The position numbers were made by a program, and so were the translations under genes. Shown in pieces: positions 2,413 to 20,379 of a stretch of 20,379 bases of DNA; the first letter of the stretch is position 1, and each line of letters starts with the position of its first letter. The notes under the pieces are model-generated. The model worked only from the letters and a program-made list of their open reading frames with translations. It made no database searches and was not told the origin of the DNA. The stretch comes from a virus. The DNA is taken from positions 1-20,379 of the IMG/VR virus record IMGVR_UViG_3300001814_000053. One strand, 5' to 3'.

Positions 2413-3711
2413 TTATCCCTCCAGTCTGAGCGCTTTTGCGCCGGTGAAAGTTTCCCAGCGTTTGACCGCCAAGTCGCAGTAAACGGGCGATAGCTCCATG
2501 GCGCAGCAGCGGCGCTCGGTCTGCTCCGCCGCGATAATGGTGGTACCGCTGCCGGAAAAGGGCTCCAAAACAATGCCGCCCCGGTCGCTGTGCATCTTGA
2601 TGCAGCGCCAGGGCAGCTCCACCGGGAACATGGCCGGATGCTCCTTGTTGGCGCGCACCGTGGTCATCTCCCAGATACCCGCGTAGCCCCATTTCTTGCG
2701 CTCGTCTTTAGTCAGCCGTTTTACAAATCTATAGCTGTGCCCGGCGAAGGCCGAGAGCCACAGATATTCCTGGTCGTTGTACTCCTCGGCTTCGCCGTTA
2801 TTGCTGAAGGCCGAAATATACTCGTACTGCTGCACCGGCTTGTTGGAAACGAGGTGATAAGGGCCGACGCCAAAATTCATCCCTTGCTTTTTCCAGACGC
2901 GGATCCAGATCGGGCGATAGCCGTTTTCGGCAAACATGTTCACGGAATAGACGCTGGTCGGCTCGATGAACTGGGAGCCGGTGGCGTATAGGTCGCCTAA
3001 GTTCCAGCAGACGATCTCCGCGTACCTGCACAGGTTCTTAATCACCGGCCGGATGGTCTGAAACCACGGCTCGATGCCCGCCTTTTCATATTCCTTGCCC
3101 ACGCCGTAGGGCGGCGAGGTGATAGCGGCCTGGGCGCGGCCGCCGTCCATGAGCTTGGCGAAATCAGCCGCGCTGGTGGAATCGCCGCACAGCAGGCGGT
3201 GTCTGCCCAAAAGCCAGATGTCCCCCGGCCTTGTGATCGCGCCATCGCCTTCGATGCGTTCCTTTTCCTTATCCACATCGAAATCGTCCTGCACCGCTTC
3301 CTTGGCGTGCCAGCGGTTGAGCAGCTCGTCGACCTCCGCGGCGTCAAAGCCGGTGAGGGAGACGTCGAAGGCGCCCGCGTCAAGCTCCGCCATCAACTCC
3401 GCCAGCTTGGTTTCGTCCCATTCGCCCTGAATCTTGTTGAGGGCGAGGTTGAGCGCCTTTTCTTTCTGCGGATCAAGCTCTACCACCACGCAGTCGATCT
3501 CGCTGTGGCCCAAATCGAGCAGCACCTTCAGGCGCTGGTGGCCGCCCACCACATTGCCGGTCCGGCGATTAAAGATTACCGGCTCCACATAGCCGAACTC
3601 CTCGATGGAGCGGCGGAGCTTTTGATACTCCTTATCGCCGGGTTTTAAGTCTTTGCGCGGGTTGTACCGGGCGGGCCTTAAAAGCTCCGCCTTGATTTTT
3701 TCTATCTTCAT
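2413..3711 (-). CDS. ParB-domain DNA methyltransferase, SPPY type
   Basis: A 432-aa protein with the same layout as its downstream neighbour. The ParB/Srx-like domain spans residues 1-90 (YNPRKDLKPGD at 16-26, VVGGHQR at 54-60). The beta-class methyltransferase domain has TSPPY at 198-202 and EPFSGSGTT at 383-391. SPPY is most often seen in cytosine-N4 enzymes but also occurs in some adenine-N6 enzymes, so the modified base is uncertain. The ATG at 3711 overlaps the terminase small subunit stop as ATGA, and GGAGGGG lies about 6-9 bases upstream. The open frame extends 75 codons further upstream, but that is a shadow of the terminase gene. ParB-methyltransferase fusions next to terS are common in clostridial prophages. 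Confidence 0.88.
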   Translation of the reverse strand: MKIEKIKAELLRPARYNPRKDLKPGDKEYQKLRRSIEEFGYVEPVIFNRRTGNVVGGHQRLKVLLDLGHSEIDCVVVELDPQKEKALNLALNKIQGEWDETKLAELMAELDAGAFDVSLTGFDAAEVDELLNRWHAKEAVQDDFDVDKEKERIEGDGAITRPGDIWLLGRHRLLCGDSTSAADFAKLMDGGRAQAAITSPPYGVGKEYEKAGIEPWFQTIRPVIKNLCRYAEIVCWNLGDLYATGSQFIEPTSVYSVNMFAENGYRPIWIRVWKKQGMNFGVGPYHLVSNKPVQQYEYISAFSNNGEAEEYNDQEYLWLSAFAGHSYRFVKRLTKDERKKWGYAGIWEMTTVRANKEHPAMFPVELPWRCIKMHSDRGGIVLEPFSGSGTTIIAAEQTERRCCAMELSPVYCDLAVKRWETFTGAKALRLEG

Positions 3712-4289
3712 CTGTCGCCCCTCCTGGCGGAGAGCAGCCTCTCCATCACGTCGTCCTGCGGATTGCCGACAAAAGCCGTGGTGCAGTTTTGCTTGACGAT
3801 GTCGAAAATCTCGTACCAGAGGAGATTCGCCTGCTTCTGGAACGACTGGCTCATCTGCACGAACGGGCTGGCTATCGCGCCGCCGGTAGTCGGGTGCTTG
3901 CCCAAAAGCCCGTAGGTGCTGATGGCCTCCTCGCACTGAATGTAGCGCGTGAACGCCTGGGCGTAGGCTTCAATCAGCCGCGGGTTGACGAATTTCTCAC
4001 AGCCGCGATCTTTTAGCCATTTCCACGTCTCAATGAACAGCGCGTCCGCGCCGAGCGGTTTTCCGTCTCGCTGCCTCGCGCTGAGGTAGTCGCTTGGGGC
4101 GGGCATATCCTCGCCGAATAAATCCGCCGTGCCGCCCAGTTCGCCCGCTTCAAGCAGCGGCTCAGGAGGCAGCTTAGGGGGTTCCAAAACGCGAGCGGCT
4201 TTGCCCGCCGTGATTTTCTCCGCGAGGGGCTGCGGCTTGTCGCCGGCGCGCACGCGACGGCCGCCCCTGTTTGTTCCGTCTTTTGCCAC
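3708..4289 (-). CDS. Phage terminase small subunit, P27 family
   Basis: A 193-aa protein beginning MAKDGTNRGGRRVRAGDKP, with a basic, proline-rich, disordered N-terminus (about 1-75). An alpha-helical part follows (about 85-170: ETWKWLKDRGCEKFVNPRLIEAYA, then RYIQCEEAISTYG and SPFVQMSQSFQKQANLLWYEIFDIV), which fits P27-type small terminases. These proteins recognise the packaging site and deliver DNA to the large terminase. The start is GTG at 4289 with AAGGAGGTGA about 6 bases before it. The stop overlaps the methyltransferase start (ATGA). The large subunit is not in the window and would be expected beyond the left edge. HNH nuclease-terS is a standard gene pair. Confidence 0.8.
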   Translation of the reverse strand: MAKDGTNRGGRRVRAGDKPQPLAEKITAGKAARVLEPPKLPPEPLLEAGELGGTADLFGEDMPAPSDYLSARQRDGKPLGADALFIETWKWLKDRGCEKFVNPRLIEAYAQAFTRYIQCEEAISTYGLLGKHPTTGGAIASPFVQMSQSFQKQANLLWYEIFDIVKQNCTTAFVGNPQDDVMERLLSARRGDR

Positions 4290-5567: not shown

Positions 5568-5996
5568 TCAACAGATTATAGTGACATCTTTTACTCGCTC
5601 CGAGCAGGCGGCTAACGCTTCGTCGTGTATTCGGTGAACGTGGCGCACGCTGCAATGAAAATCCGCCGCGATTTCATCCCATGTTTTGAAGCAGAGATAG
5701 CGTAGTTCCAGGAGTACCCTGTAATCTGGGCTATTCAAAGAACGGATAGCATTCGCAATGTCCCGCTTCAAGTCGACGAGCCTGTCGATGTCTAAGTTTA
5801 TTTCATTCTCCAGATCCAGCATTTTGGCGATGATCTCCTCCATGCGGTGGACATTGCGCGTCTCACTCGGCGGTGTCGGCGAGAGAGTGGAGGTGGCTTT
5901 GGCGGCGAGCTCCCGAAGTACCCGTACCTGCTCTAATTTTGCGTCTATAAGGCGGTTTATCCGCCGGGTCTGTGCCAAGTACTCCTTAACCGTCAT
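5568..5996 (-). CDS. DUF1492/ArpU-like phage transcription regulator
   Basis: A 142-aa helical protein. The N-terminal half (MTVKEYLAQTRRINRLIDAK onward, to about residue 90) is a coiled-coil-like region. The C-terminal part (about 95-130: LLELRYLCFKTWDEIAADFH, then SVRHVHRIHDEAL) is a sigma-70-region-4-like helix-turn-helix. This matches DUF1492/ArpU-type proteins, which sit at the end of early modules in Gram-positive phages and are thought to activate late genes. Its ATG overlaps the stop of the cysteine-rich gene (ATGA). It is the last gene before an AT-rich insertion carrying the gre-like gene. A direct target promoter is not identifiable, but the repeated elements at 1108 and 115 downstream are candidates. 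Confidence 0.75.
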   Translation of the reverse strand: MTVKEYLAQTRRINRLIDAKLEQVRVLRELAAKATSTLSPTPPSETRNVHRMEEIIAKMLDLENEINLDIDRLVDLKRDIANAIRSLNSPDYRVLLELRYLCFKTWDEIAADFHCSVRHVHRIHDEALAACSERVKDVTIIC

Positions 5997-16143: not shown

Positions 16144-16641
16144 TTAGGGGAAGAATTTACGGAGCTTGTCATGCATTTTTCTCAAGCGCTTTCTGATAAC
16201 CGTCTCACTCACACCTTCTTCAGCGGCAATGTCCGTGTTGGAGCGTTTGGAAACGTATTTCTTTTCAAAGAGGGTACGCTGTTGGAGCTCAAGGCTTTCC
16301 ATCGCGTTGCTGAGCCGGAACAAGGTTTCTGCGTATGCAGTGTCGTCCTCCTGAGCAATGAGGACAGTCTCCGGGTTTGCCCGGTTATCGGCAAGACGTT
16401 TGTTACGGTCGCCTGCCTCCTCGCCGTCGCCATCGTGGTAGGCGTCCAGATGCTCAGTGACGCGGTAGTCATAACGGCGTTGTTCGTTAACATCTGTGTC
16501 GTCCATAGCGTGAAGCTCTTCGACTAAGGCTTCGGTTACGCCATTCTCGCCGGGTATCAGTTCCATGATTTTCTGACCGTTAGGGCCGTAATAAATGTAG
16601 GTAGTGCGGTTCTTTTTACTAGTCTTGTACTTTCTTGACAT
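16144..16641 (-). CDS. Sigma-70 region 4-like phage regulator
   Basis: A 165-aa protein. The N-terminal part is polar (YKTSKKNRTTYIYYGPNGQK). Residues about 105-165 look like sigma region 4: LFRLSNAMESLELQQRTLFE, then a helix-turn-helix NTDIAAEEGVSETVIRKRLR (135-154) and a basic end. It lacks regions 2 and 3, so it is not a complete sigma factor. Such proteins head replication modules in Bacillota phages and conjugative elements and probably regulate them. AGGAG lies 7 bases before the ATG. The 146-base leader is strongly structured (16659-16773), which suggests control at RNA level. Confidence 0.75.
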   Translation of the reverse strand: MSRKYKTSKKNRTTYIYYGPNGQKIMELIPGENGVTEALVEELHAMDDTDVNEQRRYDYRVTEHLDAYHDGDGEEAGDRNKRLADNRANPETVLIAQEDDTAYAETLFRLSNAMESLELQQRTLFEKKYVSKRSNTDIAAEEGVSETVIRKRLRKMHDKLRKFFP

Positions 16642-16658
16642 AATTTGGCTCCTTTGGC

Positions 16659-16773
16659 TTTCAGATTTCTGAAATCCGCCAGAGCCGCTTGAATCCGCTT
16701 AAACGAAATAGACGGCAGGTGAACCCCCTAGTTCGGGAGTTCCGCGCTGCCGTCTTGCGTTCGGGCGGATTTC
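16659..16773 (-). ncRNA. Structured leader RNA of the sigma-like gene (candidate cis-regulatory RNA)
   Basis: On the minus-strand RNA there are nested stems. The outer 10 bp is GAAAUCCGCC (16773-16764) with GGCGGAUUUC (16680-16671). The middle 9 bp is AGACGGCAG/CUGCCGUCU (16755-16747 with 16718-16710). The apical 8 bp is GAACUCCC/GGGGGUUC with a 6-base loop and one G-U pair that would be a C-A mismatch on the other strand, favouring minus-strand RNA. A second hairpin, UUUCAG-AAAU-CUGAAA (16674-16659), uses the same UUUC as the outer stem, so the two are mutually exclusive. It ends just before the ribosome-binding site. This looks like a switch; the ligand or trigger is unknown. Confidence 0.5.
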
Positions 16774-16787
16774 TCTTATTTACTTGT

Positions 16788-16946
16788 TTAGGCTTTTACA
16801 GTGATTCGCTCATGGGTGATCTGAAGAGTCCCGTCTGGTTTAGCTCTGATTCTTGTGATGCAGTCTTTTTTTGCGATTTCAGCGACCTTTGAATCACTGC
16901 TGATATCGCAAACCCGCTTGTCATCAAGGTTTCTGACTTCTTTCAA
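16788..16946 (-). CDS. 52-aa conserved small phage protein
   Basis: A short gene starting at TTG 16946, with GGAGG 7 bases upstream, and ending in TAA at 16788. The product begins MKEVRNLDDKRVCDISSDSK and ends DGTLQITHERITVKA; it looks like a small beta protein with two cysteines. I recognise the MKE(V/I)RNL...RVC pattern from short proteins at the head of phage and conjugative-element operons, but no function is known to me. It is the first minus-strand gene seen after the divergent intergenic region. The plus-strand frame overlapping it is less likely to be real. Confidence 0.65.
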   Translation of the reverse strand: MKEVRNLDDKRVCDISSDSKVAEIAKKDCITRIRAKPDGTLQITHERITVKA

Positions 16947-17275: not shown

Positions 17276-18538
17276 ATGGGGAGATTGTGTTTTGGGACAT
17301 ACGCAAAACTCCTACAAAAAACCCTTGCAGCTGACGACAATAAACATGTAGTGAGTTTACTGTTGGGGTTGATTATCGACAACGAGGATGTCAGAAATCA
17401 GCACGGCGAGCCGTTTGACGTTTCTGATAAACATGCCAGTCGCCTTCTCAACCACAAGGACAATTTGCGCAAAAAAATAAAGGATGCCTCTGGCACCCCC
17501 AAAATTATAAACGCTGCTCGTGATTATTTTGATGATGTTGTCATTCCAGAAATAATGCCTGATTTAGTCGCTGATTTGATTGCTGATTTAAGAGAACTTA
17601 TTATGTCCGATGTTGGAATACCGAAGCGCAAACAAACTGACTTCCTTGCATTAGGAGATGGGGATTCTCTAGCTGAGTTTCTGGCAAAAGTGTTTTTATA
17701 TGCAATAAAAAAACCCAATAAGTTATGTGCTGATAAAAAAGGCATGGAAACGAGTGATGAACTGCTTCCGCTCTCGCCTGCACGACCGAGGGCGCTTCCA
17801 GAATCAGACATTTATCTGCTTTTGGAAGCGAACAGTGTCTGTCCCTCTTGCGGGAAACCACTTGTTAACGACAAGAACAACCACAGCCTTCCCGGATACG
17901 CGATCACACCGATTATCCCGCTTCGGCCTACTGATGATGAAAGAACGGAGTTAGGTGATTTGATAAACAATACCTATGACCCGGAGACAAACAACAATAA
18001 AATTGCTCTCTGCCTTGAATGTGCGAATCGATACAAACTGCATACCACTAAGGAGGAATGCAGGCAATTACTGGATACCAAGGACAGTTTAAGGCGAAAT
18101 TTCGATGCCTCTGTAATGCTGGATAAAATGTATCTGGAAGAACAGATAGAAGCAGTATTGAGGCAGATACCCTTTGCATCTGCAGAACAACTATCGGATA
18201 CCCTTGAGTATAACGCTCTACGGATTAAAGAGAAAATATCCAGTAATGTGCCACTAATCATAAAAACCCAAGGCTTTGTGGTGCAGTATTACACATTTAT
18301 TAAATCTGTGTTCTCACAAATGGAGCGCGAAGGAATACTGAACTTCGAAGACGTGGCGAATGATGTCCAGCGCAGTTACAGGAAGCTTTCTTCAATCGGG
18401 CTGAAGCAAGAAGAAATATTCACGCAATTAGTAGAGTGGTTCAAAAAGAAAGGGAAAGCGAGAAGTTCGCTCGCCTGCGAAATAATTGTGGCATTCTTTG
18501 TGCAGAATTGTGAGGTGTTCCATGCGCTTACCCAATAA
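17276..18538 (+). CDS. ABC-3C system protein with degenerate HNH-like zinc finger (probable effector component)
   Basis: A 420-aa protein. Residues 1-110 are helical and begin MGRLCFGTYAKLLQ, a start I associate with ABC-three-component partner proteins. Residues 187-265 form a zinc-finger region: CPSC (189-192), YAITPIIPLRPT (208-219) and NNNKIALCLECANRY (239-253), spaced like an HNH core. The first His is Thr211 and the His of the usual C-x2-C-H is Ala250, so nuclease activity is doubtful. The C-terminal region (about 340-420: IFTQLVEWFKKKGKARSSLA, then CEIIVAFFVQNCEVF) resembles the shared C-terminal domain of ABC-3C proteins. The only ATG after the in-frame stop at 17252 is at 17276, with AAGGA 10 bases upstream. 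It overlaps the next gene by 17 bases. It would bind the ATPase and carry out the response; role inferred. Confidence 0.7.
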   Translation: MGRLCFGTYAKLLQKTLAADDNKHVVSLLLGLIIDNEDVRNQHGEPFDVSDKHASRLLNHKDNLRKKIKDASGTPKIINAARDYFDDVVIPEIMPDLVADLIADLRELIMSDVGIPKRKQTDFLALGDGDSLAEFLAKVFLYAIKKPNKLCADKKGMETSDELLPLSPARPRALPESDIYLLLEANSVCPSCGKPLVNDKNNHSLPGYAITPIIPLRPTDDERTELGDLINNTYDPETNNNKIALCLECANRYKLHTTKEECRQLLDTKDSLRRNFDASVMLDKMYLEEQIEAVLRQIPFASAEQLSDTLEYNALRIKEKISSNVPLIIKTQGFVVQYYTFIKSVFSQMEREGILNFEDVANDVQRSYRKLSSIGLKQEEIFTQLVEWFKKKGKARSSLACEIIVAFFVQNCEVFHALTQ

Positions 18539-18761
18539 GGTAAACAGTTTCAACGGAAGCGTAATCTCCAGATTCCCAGTTGTGTTAAATGTATTAGAGC
18601 AAGGCGATACATCACCCTCAACACTATATGACTCAGTGATCAAGACAGTTGGTGATATAAGCGAATTTATAGAGATACTGGACTGCCTTTACGCTTTAGG
18701 GAAAATAGAATTCGACGCAGAAACGAGGTTGCTACATTATGTTGCTGGAAATAAGATGTGA
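18522..18761 (+). CDS. ABC-3C middle component (small winged-helix-like protein)
   Basis: A 79-aa protein, MRLPNKVNSFNGSVISRFPV onward. The two-part pattern (LPNK...S at the start, then VLNVLEQGDTSPSTLYDSV and FIEILDCLYALGKIEFD) matches the small middle components of ABC-three-component systems, which are winged-helix-like and, by size and context, probably bridge ATPase and effector. ATG 18522 follows GAGGTG by 4 bases; 12 more codons are open upstream but have no ribosome-binding site. It overlaps the upstream gene by 17 bases and the ATPase gene by 23, so the three proteins are translationally coupled and likely form one complex. The exact middle-component subtype cannot be decided here. 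Confidence 0.72.
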   Translation: MRLPNKVNSFNGSVISRFPVVLNVLEQGDTSPSTLYDSVIKTVGDISEFIEILDCLYALGKIEFDAETRLLHYVAGNKM

Positions 18762-20379
18762 CAGATTCAAGAGCTACGGTGAATTACGCCCTCCTATCGC
18801 CTTCCACGCGGGACTGAACACCGTACTTGGAAGTGAAACGGGCAGCAACTCCATTGGGAAATCTACCTTCCTTATGACTGTAGACTTTGCCTTTGGCGGA
18901 GATGACTATGTGTTGAAGTCAACGGACGTTCAAACACAGGTGGGGCCGCACAGTATCCAGTTTGCTTTTGAGTTCAATGGGAAGAGGCATTTCTTCTCTC
19001 GCGAAACGATTAACCACACCCGCGTCATCCGTTGCGATGCGGAATACAATCCCATATCGGAAATGTCACGAGATGAATTCCGGACGTTCCTTTTTGAACA
19101 ATATGGGATTAAGCTTCCACTGATCACCTTTCGAGATATGGTTGGTCGTTACTTTCGCATCTATGGGCGAGACAATCTAGATGAAAAACGCCCGCTGCAT
19201 GCAGCAAAAGGTGAAGCTCCCAAGAAAGCCATTACAGCATTGATGATGCTTTTCAATAAGTACGCTGCTGTGCATGACTTGGAAAAAGCGGTCGATGAAA
19301 GCAAAAACCAGAAGGATGCCTACAAGAGAGTACAAGAATTTCATTTTATTCCCAGAATAGGTAAGCGGCAATTTGCCGCTAATGAGAAGCGGATTGAAGA
19401 ATTACAGACTGAGCTTGCACAACTTCAGGAAAGCAGTGGAAATGAACTAATGGGACTTGATTCCCAGCAAGTTGAGTTTCTTGCGGAATTAAGACGAAAA
19501 CTCACTGCGGTAAAGCGTCAGAAAAGCCGCCTAACATCGCAGTTGACCGTTATCGAAAGTGATATATCAACAGACATTGCTGACAGTCCAAGGCAGCATA
19601 GTAACTTCCAGGCCTTATTGCGCTTTTTCCCGGATGCGAACCTCAAGAAAATCGAAGATATCGAGCAGTTCCATCACCAACTGGTAGGTATTTTGAATGC
19701 GGAGTATGAAGAAGCAAGGCGGCGGTATCTTTCACTTATAGAACTTGCGACCAATGAAATCAGGGTGCTGGAAAACGAAATTCGGGCCTCTGGTCTTACG
19801 CCAAAAGTATCTCGTACTCTGTTGGAAGAGTATGCCTCTAAGAAGGGGCAAATAAAAGCTTTGGAAAAGGAAAACGAGACATACAGCAAGATGGAAGAAT
19901 TAAAGACTGCTGCTAAAAATATGGAAGAGCGTCTTATTGCCTTGCAGGAAGAACAAATTGGCTTTTTGCAAAGCGCCATCAACGTTCAGATGGACGAGAT
20001 TAACGATGTTGTTTATCAAGGCGAAAAGAAACCTCCCGTCTTGACAATAAAGAGGCCAAACAGCTATACATTCCTCACACCGGATGATACGGGCACAGGC
20101 ACTTCGTATAAAGGGTTAGTTGTGTTTGACTTGGCGGTAATGCAGTTAACACCGCTACCCGCCTTGGTTCATGACTCGGTAATACTGAAGCAAATAGCCG
20201 ATGAGCCGCTTGAAAGAATACTGGAACTCTACAGCAGCACTCCAAAGCAGGTTTTCATTGCTCTGGATAAAAAGGGCTCGTATTCCGAAAAAACACAAGC
20301 AATTCTTGAGGAAAATACAGTAATTCATCTTTCCGATAACGGAAATGAGCTGTTTGGGTATTCGTGGAACATTAAGTAA
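18739..20379 (+). CDS. ABC-3C ATPase, DUF2326 type (SMC/Rad50-like)
   Basis: A 546-aa ATPase. The N-terminal half-site has LEIRCDRFKSYG (3-14) and Walker A GSETGSNSIGKST (31-43). Long charged helices predicted as coiled coil span about residues 205-290 and 325-425. The C-terminal DUF2326 part has GTGTSYKGLVVFDLA (452-466) at the signature position, a Walker B-like ALVHDS (475-480) and QVFIALDK (504-511). This is the SMC/RecN/Rad50 plan: two ATPase halves joined by a coiled coil, probably dimerising and sensing DNA or phage products. The start overlaps the middle component by 23 bases, with GAGGTT upstream. The stop is the last codon of the window, so anything downstream is unseen. AT-rich relative to the phage genes, suggesting horizontal gain. 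Confidence 0.82.
   Translation: MLLEIRCDRFKSYGELRPPIAFHAGLNTVLGSETGSNSIGKSTFLMTVDFAFGGDDYVLKSTDVQTQVGPHSIQFAFEFNGKRHFFSRETINHTRVIRCDAEYNPISEMSRDEFRTFLFEQYGIKLPLITFRDMVGRYFRIYGRDNLDEKRPLHAAKGEAPKKAITALMMLFNKYAAVHDLEKAVDESKNQKDAYKRVQEFHFIPRIGKRQFAANEKRIEELQTELAQLQESSGNELMGLDSQQVEFLAELRRKLTAVKRQKSRLTSQLTVIESDISTDIADSPRQHSNFQALLRFFPDANLKKIEDIEQFHHQLVGILNAEYEEARRRYLSLIELATNEIRVLENEIRASGLTPKVSRTLLEEYASKKGQIKALEKENETYSKMEELKTAAKNMEERLIALQEEQIGFLQSAINVQMDEINDVVYQGEKKPPVLTIKRPNSYTFLTPDDTGTGTSYKGLVVFDLAVMQLTPLPALVHDSVILKQIADEPLERILELYSSTPKQVFIALDKKGSYSEKTQAILEENTVIHLSDNGNELFGYSWNIK

Follow-up and report, generated by a model that had tools for sequence, protein, structure and literature searches.

A structured leader RNA between a small gene and a sigma-like gene in a phage early operon, a candidate double lock

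The window analysed here is a virus record of 20,379 bases. On its minus strand, a leader of about 130 nt separates a 52-codon ORF (16788-16946) from a gene resembling sigma-70 region 4 (16144-16641), which is followed by replication genes. The sequence-only reading had called the gene after the leader sigma-like, and its match to PF08281 bears this out. The features of the locus, in transcript order, are as follows.

16788-16946, minus strand: 52-codon ORF with a TTG start and AAAGGAGG upstream of it; a member of the A4-profile family (see below) and the candidate partner of the leader
16758-16773, minus strand: 5′ arm of the leader, with two alternative partners, the near arm (in the minimum free energy, MFE, fold) or the distal arm
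16773-16764 (GAAAUCCGCC) with 16680-16671 (GGCGGAUUUC), minus strand: outer stem of 10 bp, read from the sequence, spanning 103 bases
16755-16747 with 16718-16710, minus strand: middle stem of 9 bp, read from the sequence
16742-16735 with 16728-16721, minus strand: apical stem of 8 bp including one G-U pair, read from the sequence
16710-16755, minus strand: terminator-like hairpin made of the middle and apical stems (helices 3 and 4 of the alignment, with changes on both sides in 12 of 17 pairs)
16701-16710, minus strand: U-rich tail UAUUUCGUUU, 7 U in 10, interrupted, read from the sequence
16692-16705, minus strand: near 3′ arm (CGUUU and GCGGAUU), with which the 5′ arm pairs when the leader is OFF (MFE; helices 1 and 2 of the alignment)
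16681-16688, minus strand: anti-Shine-Dalgarno strand (GCGGCUCU), of which 16686-16681 pairs with 16652-16647 (helix 5)
16671-16680, minus strand: distal 3′ arm (GGCGGAUUUC), the alternative partner of the 5′ arm, overlapping the Shine-Dalgarno hairpin
16647-16655, minus strand: Shine-Dalgarno strand AAAGGAGCC, whose GGAG ends 7 nt from the AUG
16144-16641, minus strand: sigma-70 region-4-like gene of 165 aa (PF08281, E-value of 1.1e-6), 3′ of the leader

The window also encodes DUF2800, an Enc34-type ssDNA-binding protein (PF10991, which we take to be DUF2815), a family A DNA polymerase and an SNF2 helicase, and contains a sub-threshold VRR-NUC match (21.1 bits against a cut-off of 23.8). A blastn search of phage records found no similar DNA. 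Elsewhere on the minus strand, two neighbouring genes (1165-2409 and 2413-3936) both encode a ParB_N and an N6/N4 DNA methylase domain in one protein, and a second sigma-region-4-like protein is encoded at 5568-5996, with Pfam matches slightly below the cut-offs. A divergent cluster of three genes on the plus strand (17276-20379) encodes an ABC-three-component set (CTD11, MC7 and a DUF2326 ATPase), and with PADLOC it matched PDC-M68A and LmuB weakly; it is likely a defence system adjoining the phage early operon.

All three nested stems described in the sequence-only reading are present at their minus-strand positions. So is its second hairpin near the ribosome-binding site, which appears in the fold: GGCUCU (16686-16681) pairs with GGAGCC (16652-16647), with all four GGAG bases paired, and within the loop the pairing continues into the UUUC that belongs to the outer 3′ arm. 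This hairpin and the outer stem are therefore mutually exclusive. As to which of the two prevails, the outer stem exists in the sequence without being part of the default fold. In the MFE structure of the window leader, the 5′ arm (16771-16765 and 16762-16758) pairs instead with a near copy of the outer 3′ arm (16698-16692 and 16705-16701, respectively), the Shine-Dalgarno hairpin forms at the same time, and the alternative state with the 10-bp outer stem lies 12.7 kcal/mol higher (ViennaRNA). The MFE of −65.2 kcal/mol is far below that of shuffled sequences (mean −36.7, sd 3.9; z −7.2), with none of 200 shuffles as stable. Three parts of this arrangement were absent from the sequence-only reading, namely the U-rich tail, the near copy of the outer 3′ arm and the small upstream gene.

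To place the leader among its relatives, we gathered leaders by protein, pattern and covariance-model searches, which yielded 32 distinct ones including the window. Searching viral contigs with the sigma-like protein identified 4 loci, and 44 once a profile was used. The protein was also found in one named phage, in one MAG contig carrying an identical gene and in 11 of 398 genomes (E-value of 1e-15). An order-level search was positive in 4 of 299 genomes. In a class-level search of 97 genomes, all matches were weak (E-values of 2.4e-5 to 7.3e-4) except for the MAG in which the gene is identical. A covariance model of the leader type found in the window (group A), built from nine sequences and termed R1, matched 14 places in 12 of the 398 genomes, one of them antisense, as well as nine more viral contigs retrieved by DNA patterns. 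The pattern-derived loci L088-L091 had no R1 match at an E-value of 0.001. Duplicates were removed (L016 and L019, equal to L014; L023 to L022; L062 to L015; L072 to L028; L012 to L007; L074, L076 and L082 to L061, L064 and L068, respectively; L079 to L078; and L006, L008 and L053 to L002, which is the window), and L026 and L046 were dropped because they have only 9 nt upstream. L084, with a shortened leader, stands outside the 32, and L087 is L081 read in antisense. Two more leaders outside the 32, L030 and L032 (42.1 and 38.5 bits), belong to group A and to a wider set of 40 leaders used below; they were also counted with group A in the cross-group, forced-pairing and G-U comparisons.

The 32 distinct leaders aligned to R1 (alignment A5) pair in 95.0% of the cells of the default fold. 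The sequence-only reading had named compensatory changes in homologous leaders as the point on which it could fail; they are present, with 25 of the 43 pairs and 147 cells changed on both sides. None of 500 shuffles reached any of five measures of the default fold, and slid partners paired in 35-55%. Because the alignment was fitted to R1, it is biased toward the structure, although both-side changes in 10 of the 11 hairpin-helix pairs would be hard to obtain as a product of model fitting. Pairing is retained in 88-98% of the cells in each of helices 1-4 and in 98.4% in helix 5. The near stem and the hairpin form one long, near-continuous helix, as might be expected of an RNase III or other processing hairpin that separates the mRNA of the small gene from that of the sigma-like gene. 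The U-rich tail and the anti-Shine-Dalgarno/distal design would then be superfluous, and we consider such a processing site quite improbable.

The U-rich tail is found in all 32 leaders, with 6-9 U in the 10 positions after the hairpin, compared with at least 6 U in 2.2% of the minus-strand 10-mers of the window. Many relatives have runs of 5-8 U there. The window hairpin, whose tail is interrupted, was missing from a simple consensus terminator scan. Together with the Shine-Dalgarno sequence and the orientation to the genes, the tail sets the transcript strand. The apical G-U pair, which had been put forward as a sign of selection on the minus-strand RNA, turned out to be weak evidence: across 23 leaders the transcript fold has 83 G-U pairs and 18 A-C mismatches against 71 and 26 in the antisense fold, a small asymmetry, and the antisense of the window leader folds at −64.4 kcal/mol, nearly equal to the transcript. 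The same small asymmetry, with the antisense folding nearly equally in many leaders, would fit structured DNA (a cruciform, an origin or a protein-binding site) in place of RNA, as would the nearly invariant base of the hairpin stem (GACGG/CCGUC) and the three of six helix-3 pairs without variation. Against a DNA element stand the transcript-side tail in 32 of 32 leaders, the pairing of GGAG in 40 of 40 and, in the loci inspected, a constant place and orientation between two genes; we regard it as very improbable.

No Rfam family matches the leader. At gathering scores, Rfam matched neither the window nor L003, L004, L005 and L007, in keeping with the earlier remark that no known riboswitch class was recognised. 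Fifteen related loci compared with Rfam at an E-value of 1 gave four matches, all under the gathering scores. The best sub-threshold match of the region, Tombus_5, was rejected as an identity at 21.3 of the 43 bits needed and on the opposite strand; SNORD53 in the region and mir-1781, mir-6301, SNORD49 and isrF in related loci were likewise sub-threshold.

We next looked at the alternative partner of the 5′ arm. The distal pairing, which is not part of R1, is paired in 86.9% of cells over the 32 leaders, a value reached by none of 500 shuffles. Its covariation, uncorrected for kinship, lies mainly in one column pair, 12-134 (CG in 11 leaders, AU in 10, GC in 5, GU in 4 and others in 2), and the number of double-change pairs was matched by 69 of 500 shuffles. 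C11 faces a G in the distal arm of 31 of the 32 leaders, against 18 of 32 in the near arm. By duplex energy, the 5′ arm favours the distal over the near arm in 39 of 40 leaders; the two are tied in L075, where much of the distal complementarity is lost.

This dual complementarity recurs with other letters upstream of the sigma-like gene in group B (L004, L007, L018 and L031) and group C (L005 and L029), where we set the segment borders by hand. Pairing of the 5′ arm with the distal arm averaged −18.5 within group B and −31.1 within group C, against cross-group means of −9.3 to −17.0; the group B margin is narrow (−18.5 against −17.0 with C). Compared with shuffled 5′ arms, the distal pairing was equalled in 0 of 500 cases for both group C leaders and in 4, 40, 0 and 11 of 500 for those of group B. 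By eye, L127 also shows distal-type complementarity with other letters.

In free folds, all leaders favour the OFF state. The probability of an open Shine-Dalgarno sequence stays at or below 0.25 in every one of the 32 full-length folds and exceeds 0.5 in none, and when the segment from the anti-Shine-Dalgarno strand to the start codon is folded alone, at least three of the four GGAG bases are paired in 40 of 40 leaders. Forcing the distal pairing costs 0-12.8 kcal/mol across 23 leaders. With the near arm blocked, the distal pairing becomes dominant in 20 of 32 leaders and the Shine-Dalgarno sequence opens in 16 of 32, including L113, which yet lacks the distal pair as measured. The window is not among these 16, as its distal pairing rises to 0.12 and its Shine-Dalgarno opening to 0.11 only. 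Since OFF is favoured throughout, bare RNA would stay OFF and a change would need a driver.

A stable OFF state in 32 of 32 leaders and a U-rich tail in as many are also what ordinary insulation would produce. The hairpin would then end the small-gene transcript, the Shine-Dalgarno hairpin would quiet read-through, and the second pairing would be a by-product with no regulated switch behind it; many other leader types of this gene family likewise show, by eye, terminator-like and Shine-Dalgarno hairpins. A by-product sits poorly with a distal complementarity that is retained and exceeds the near one in 39 of 40 leaders, with the covarying column pair 12-134 and with the recurrence of the design in groups B and C and, by eye, L127. 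We judge insulation unlikely, though well short of negligible.

The preference for the distal arm could also act between molecules. Termination at the U-rich tail would leave the near arm, located at or beyond this tail, untranscribed and the 5′ arm free, and this short RNA could pair with the anti-Shine-Dalgarno/distal strand of the full-length mRNA and open it, so that expression would track the level of leader RNA. In this respect, the calculated energies rank the distal duplex above the near one in 39 of 40 leaders and above the Shine-Dalgarno hairpin in 36 of them (the exceptions being L075, L098, L085 and L068). Relatives in logic would be the CI RNA of phage P4 and the C4 RNA of phage P1, but these repress whereas the leader RNA would activate, and the linked small gene would be left unexplained. 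A trans-acting leader RNA is improbable in our view.

The genes upstream of the leaders, of about 50-70 codons, form one family, whose profile (A4) comprises 18 rows of 48-69 aa. None of the 18 members had a Pfam match under an E-value of 0.03 or a PHROG match at 0.01. An AlphaFold model of the small protein is all-beta with five strands (pLDDT 87.8), fold searches with it gave no matches at an E-value of 0.001, and its net charge ranges from −3 to +3 in the family. The gene directly upstream matched the A4 profile in 32 of 32 leaders, weakly and partially in L085 (E-value of 3.7e-6) and at 6.6e-15 or below in all others, and L030 and L032 were positive as well. In contrast, the profile had no match at any of the 25 leaders belonging to other types (best E-value of 0.031). 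These controls comprised groups B-E and G, including the near-duplicates L037 and L040 as well as L035, L038 and L043; L036, L039, L041, L044, L045, L047, L048, L050 and L054-L060 were outside the control set.

A protein search of the 398 genomes with the A4 profile found 12 places in 11 genomes, all 12 adjoining an R1 leader, and among the 13 sense leader places the small gene was absent at an E-value of 0.001 only beside L085. As the profile rows derive largely from leader loci and at least 9 of the 12 genome places are themselves in the profile, these counts are partly built in. Their informative part is that no copy of the small gene lies away from a leader in the 398 genomes. More independent support for the linkage comes from the pattern-found loci and two named phages. 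The small gene was present in 9 of 9 pattern-found loci, in 8 of them with proteins outside the profile rows, although the L095 protein is identical to that of the window and those of L100, L101 and L103 are nearly identical to each other. Both named phages with a good small-protein match, PV036458 and PV036426, have an R1 match directly after the gene (E-values of 2.9e-14 and 3.1e-8, respectively). In PV036426, the 5′ arm and hairpin alone are clear; another Shine-Dalgarno hairpin lies further down, and by eye the anti-Shine-Dalgarno strand of that hairpin has an upstream complement. Two further records, from Arthrobacter (E-value of 0.7, tail genes), complete the four matches listed and are outside the two counted here. 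A search of plasmids with one small protein gave no match.

Leader distances across 31 loci correlated with those of the small gene at a Mantel value of 0.585 (0/2000), against 0.253 for the sigma-like gene (19/2000); L112 was left out, as its contig has no downstream ORF. Plain linkage could yield part of this signal and may also underlie the co-inheritance. Depending on the locus, 5 to 38 nt separate the stop codon of the small gene from the leader, which does not favour a ribosome stalled at that stop. Attenuation by a ribosome translating an ORF within the leader was rejected, as by eye the window leader contains no ATG, GTG or TTG.

Downstream of R1 leaders, the proteins vary and are mostly sigma-region-4-like. 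Seven of ten tested reached the Pfam gathering score for sigma-70 region 4, those of L085 and L101 matched more weakly, and that of L081 had no match. Many were missed by the window-protein profile at an E-value of 1e-15, though sigma-like in appearance. This variation indicates that the leader is a module and not a fixed part of one gene.

Conversely, relatives of the sigma-like gene are preceded by several leader architectures, which are unrelated to one another and appear similar in logic. One riboswitch-like leader of about 145 nt, on the gene strand, occurs at L015 (1809-1955), L037 (700-842) and L042 (1795-1941) and in L024, L028, L033, L063, L067, L070, L049 and L051. It consists of a long irregular stem with a conserved GGGAUACAU...AAGUACC, where G28, A29, T30 and C32 of L015 are invariant in 11 sequences, followed by a terminator-like hairpin whose 5′ strand, GGUACUU, by eye complements AAGUACC in several members. 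Three of these 11 loci, L015, L033 and L037, had no Rfam match, and the leader is a candidate unannotated attenuator or riboswitch. For the second leader type, RNAalifold returned five pairs only, on a MAFFT alignment that we take to be poor. In L065, L066, L069 and L073, a hairpin that carries an extended A/U stretch and a U-run precedes, by eye, a Shine-Dalgarno hairpin of the type CCCUUUUCUC...GGGG. Plasmids gave no match for the other leader types.

Computation shows the fold of the leader and its covariation, complementarity for the near as well as the distal pairing, a U-rich tail and linkage with the small gene. From these we propose a double lock close to where the phage early operon begins, in which termination and Shine-Dalgarno sequestration are combined with a near/distal switch and the upstream small protein is the likeliest key; we give this proposal about an even chance. 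The first lock would be the middle and apical hairpin with the U-rich tail, serving as an intrinsic terminator after the small gene and ahead of the sigma-like one. In RNA that is read through, the near arm would capture the 5′ arm and leave the anti-Shine-Dalgarno strand free to mask the Shine-Dalgarno sequence, which would be the second lock. If the near pairing were blocked or displaced, the 5′ arm would pair with the distal strand (the anti-Shine-Dalgarno strand together with GCGGAUUU) and the Shine-Dalgarno sequence would be freed. The likeliest trigger would be binding of the leader by the small protein from the adjacent upstream gene, in which case the operon would open only after that protein had accumulated. 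Termination in vivo, switching and an effector role of the small protein are all presumed here, the last from co-inheritance and by analogy with Com-mom of phage Mu. As the terminator-like hairpin is nested within both pairings, the switch as drawn fails to explain antitermination. The near/distal choice can control translation, without by itself relieving termination. The sequence-only reading had placed a switch or attenuator at the head of the operon; the hairpin with its U-rich tail and the Shine-Dalgarno hairpin agree with such a device, while the position must be amended, as the 52-codon gene precedes the leader.

In a broader reading, the leader and the small all-beta protein belong together as a dedicated RNA-protein pair. 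They would form a portable cassette whose leader is unlocked by an RNA-binding protein of a new class and whose sigma-like cargo is exchangeable, an arrangement that would have evolved more than once. The zinc-ribbon-like ORF in the same place in group C would mean that the order of key upstream and lock downstream arose repeatedly. We see this as possible, with the chances somewhat against it.

Among the known systems close to this proposal is Com of phage Mu, a small protein that is proposed to refold the mom mRNA and expose its translation start signals (PMC6483171). As in that account of com-mom, a small protein from the same operon would act here on a hairpin that masks the start of the next gene (PMC6483171). 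Unlike Com, the small protein of the window is modelled as all-beta, lacks a CCCC zinc finger and has no match to Com (PF10122); and unlike com-mom, the leader also has a terminator-like hairpin and a choice between near and distal pairing, and the gene downstream is sigma-like and not mom. The window leader would thus work like Com-mom without belonging to it, through a putative binding event. A more Com-like feature is the CxxC zinc-ribbon-like ORF immediately upstream in both group C loci. Three group B loci (L004, L007 and L031) have a zinc-ribbon-like ORF at a greater distance upstream, with another small ORF in between in L004 and L007. Two group B zinc-ribbon proteins had sub-threshold Com matches (E-values of 0.049 and 0.018), and the two from group C had none among the matches listed.

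Riboswitches and attenuators that act by termination or Shine-Dalgarno sequestration have mutually exclusive pairings, a terminator-like hairpin and a Shine-Dalgarno hairpin. The window leader shares all three. Across the 32 leaders, the hairpin followed by a U-rich tail and the Shine-Dalgarno sequence paired in the default fold are each found in every one. For an alternative that frees it the picture is mixed, as the duplex energies and column pair 12-134 favour the distal pairing but the blocked-arm folds open in 16 of 32 leaders, the window not among them. Unlike a riboswitch class, the leader has no Rfam family and is tied to one small protein family. The CI RNA of phage P4 and the C4 antisense RNA of phage P1 act as repressors in immunity, and there a short strand can pair with either of two sites in a phage leader. 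Here, too, one short leader strand has two complements, but its pairing would free the Shine-Dalgarno sequence, and there is no Rfam match at threshold.

The phages themselves have early core genes in common with Ca. Heliusviridae, which are described as sharing nine genes and are reported from 190 of the 196 people in a gut cohort (PMC9226167). The window has the five early genes of these nine, VRR-NUC being sub-threshold, in a comparison restricted to the early genes; the other four are structural (PMC9226167). Two records classed as Ca. Heliusvirales, the named phages above, carry the leader in whole or in part. Neither the leader nor the small gene is mentioned in the sections of the Ca. 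Heliusviridae description covered here (PMC9226167); titles and abstract openings in the open-licence literature gave no account of the leader, and no work on the timing of early expression in these phages, among the matches listed. We file the leader as a new RNA family of an already known kind. It places a covariation-backed family without an Rfam match at a regulatory step that leads from a small gene to a sigma-like gene and on to replication genes, and the strict association between a single small gene and a single leader offers a candidate regulator and target.
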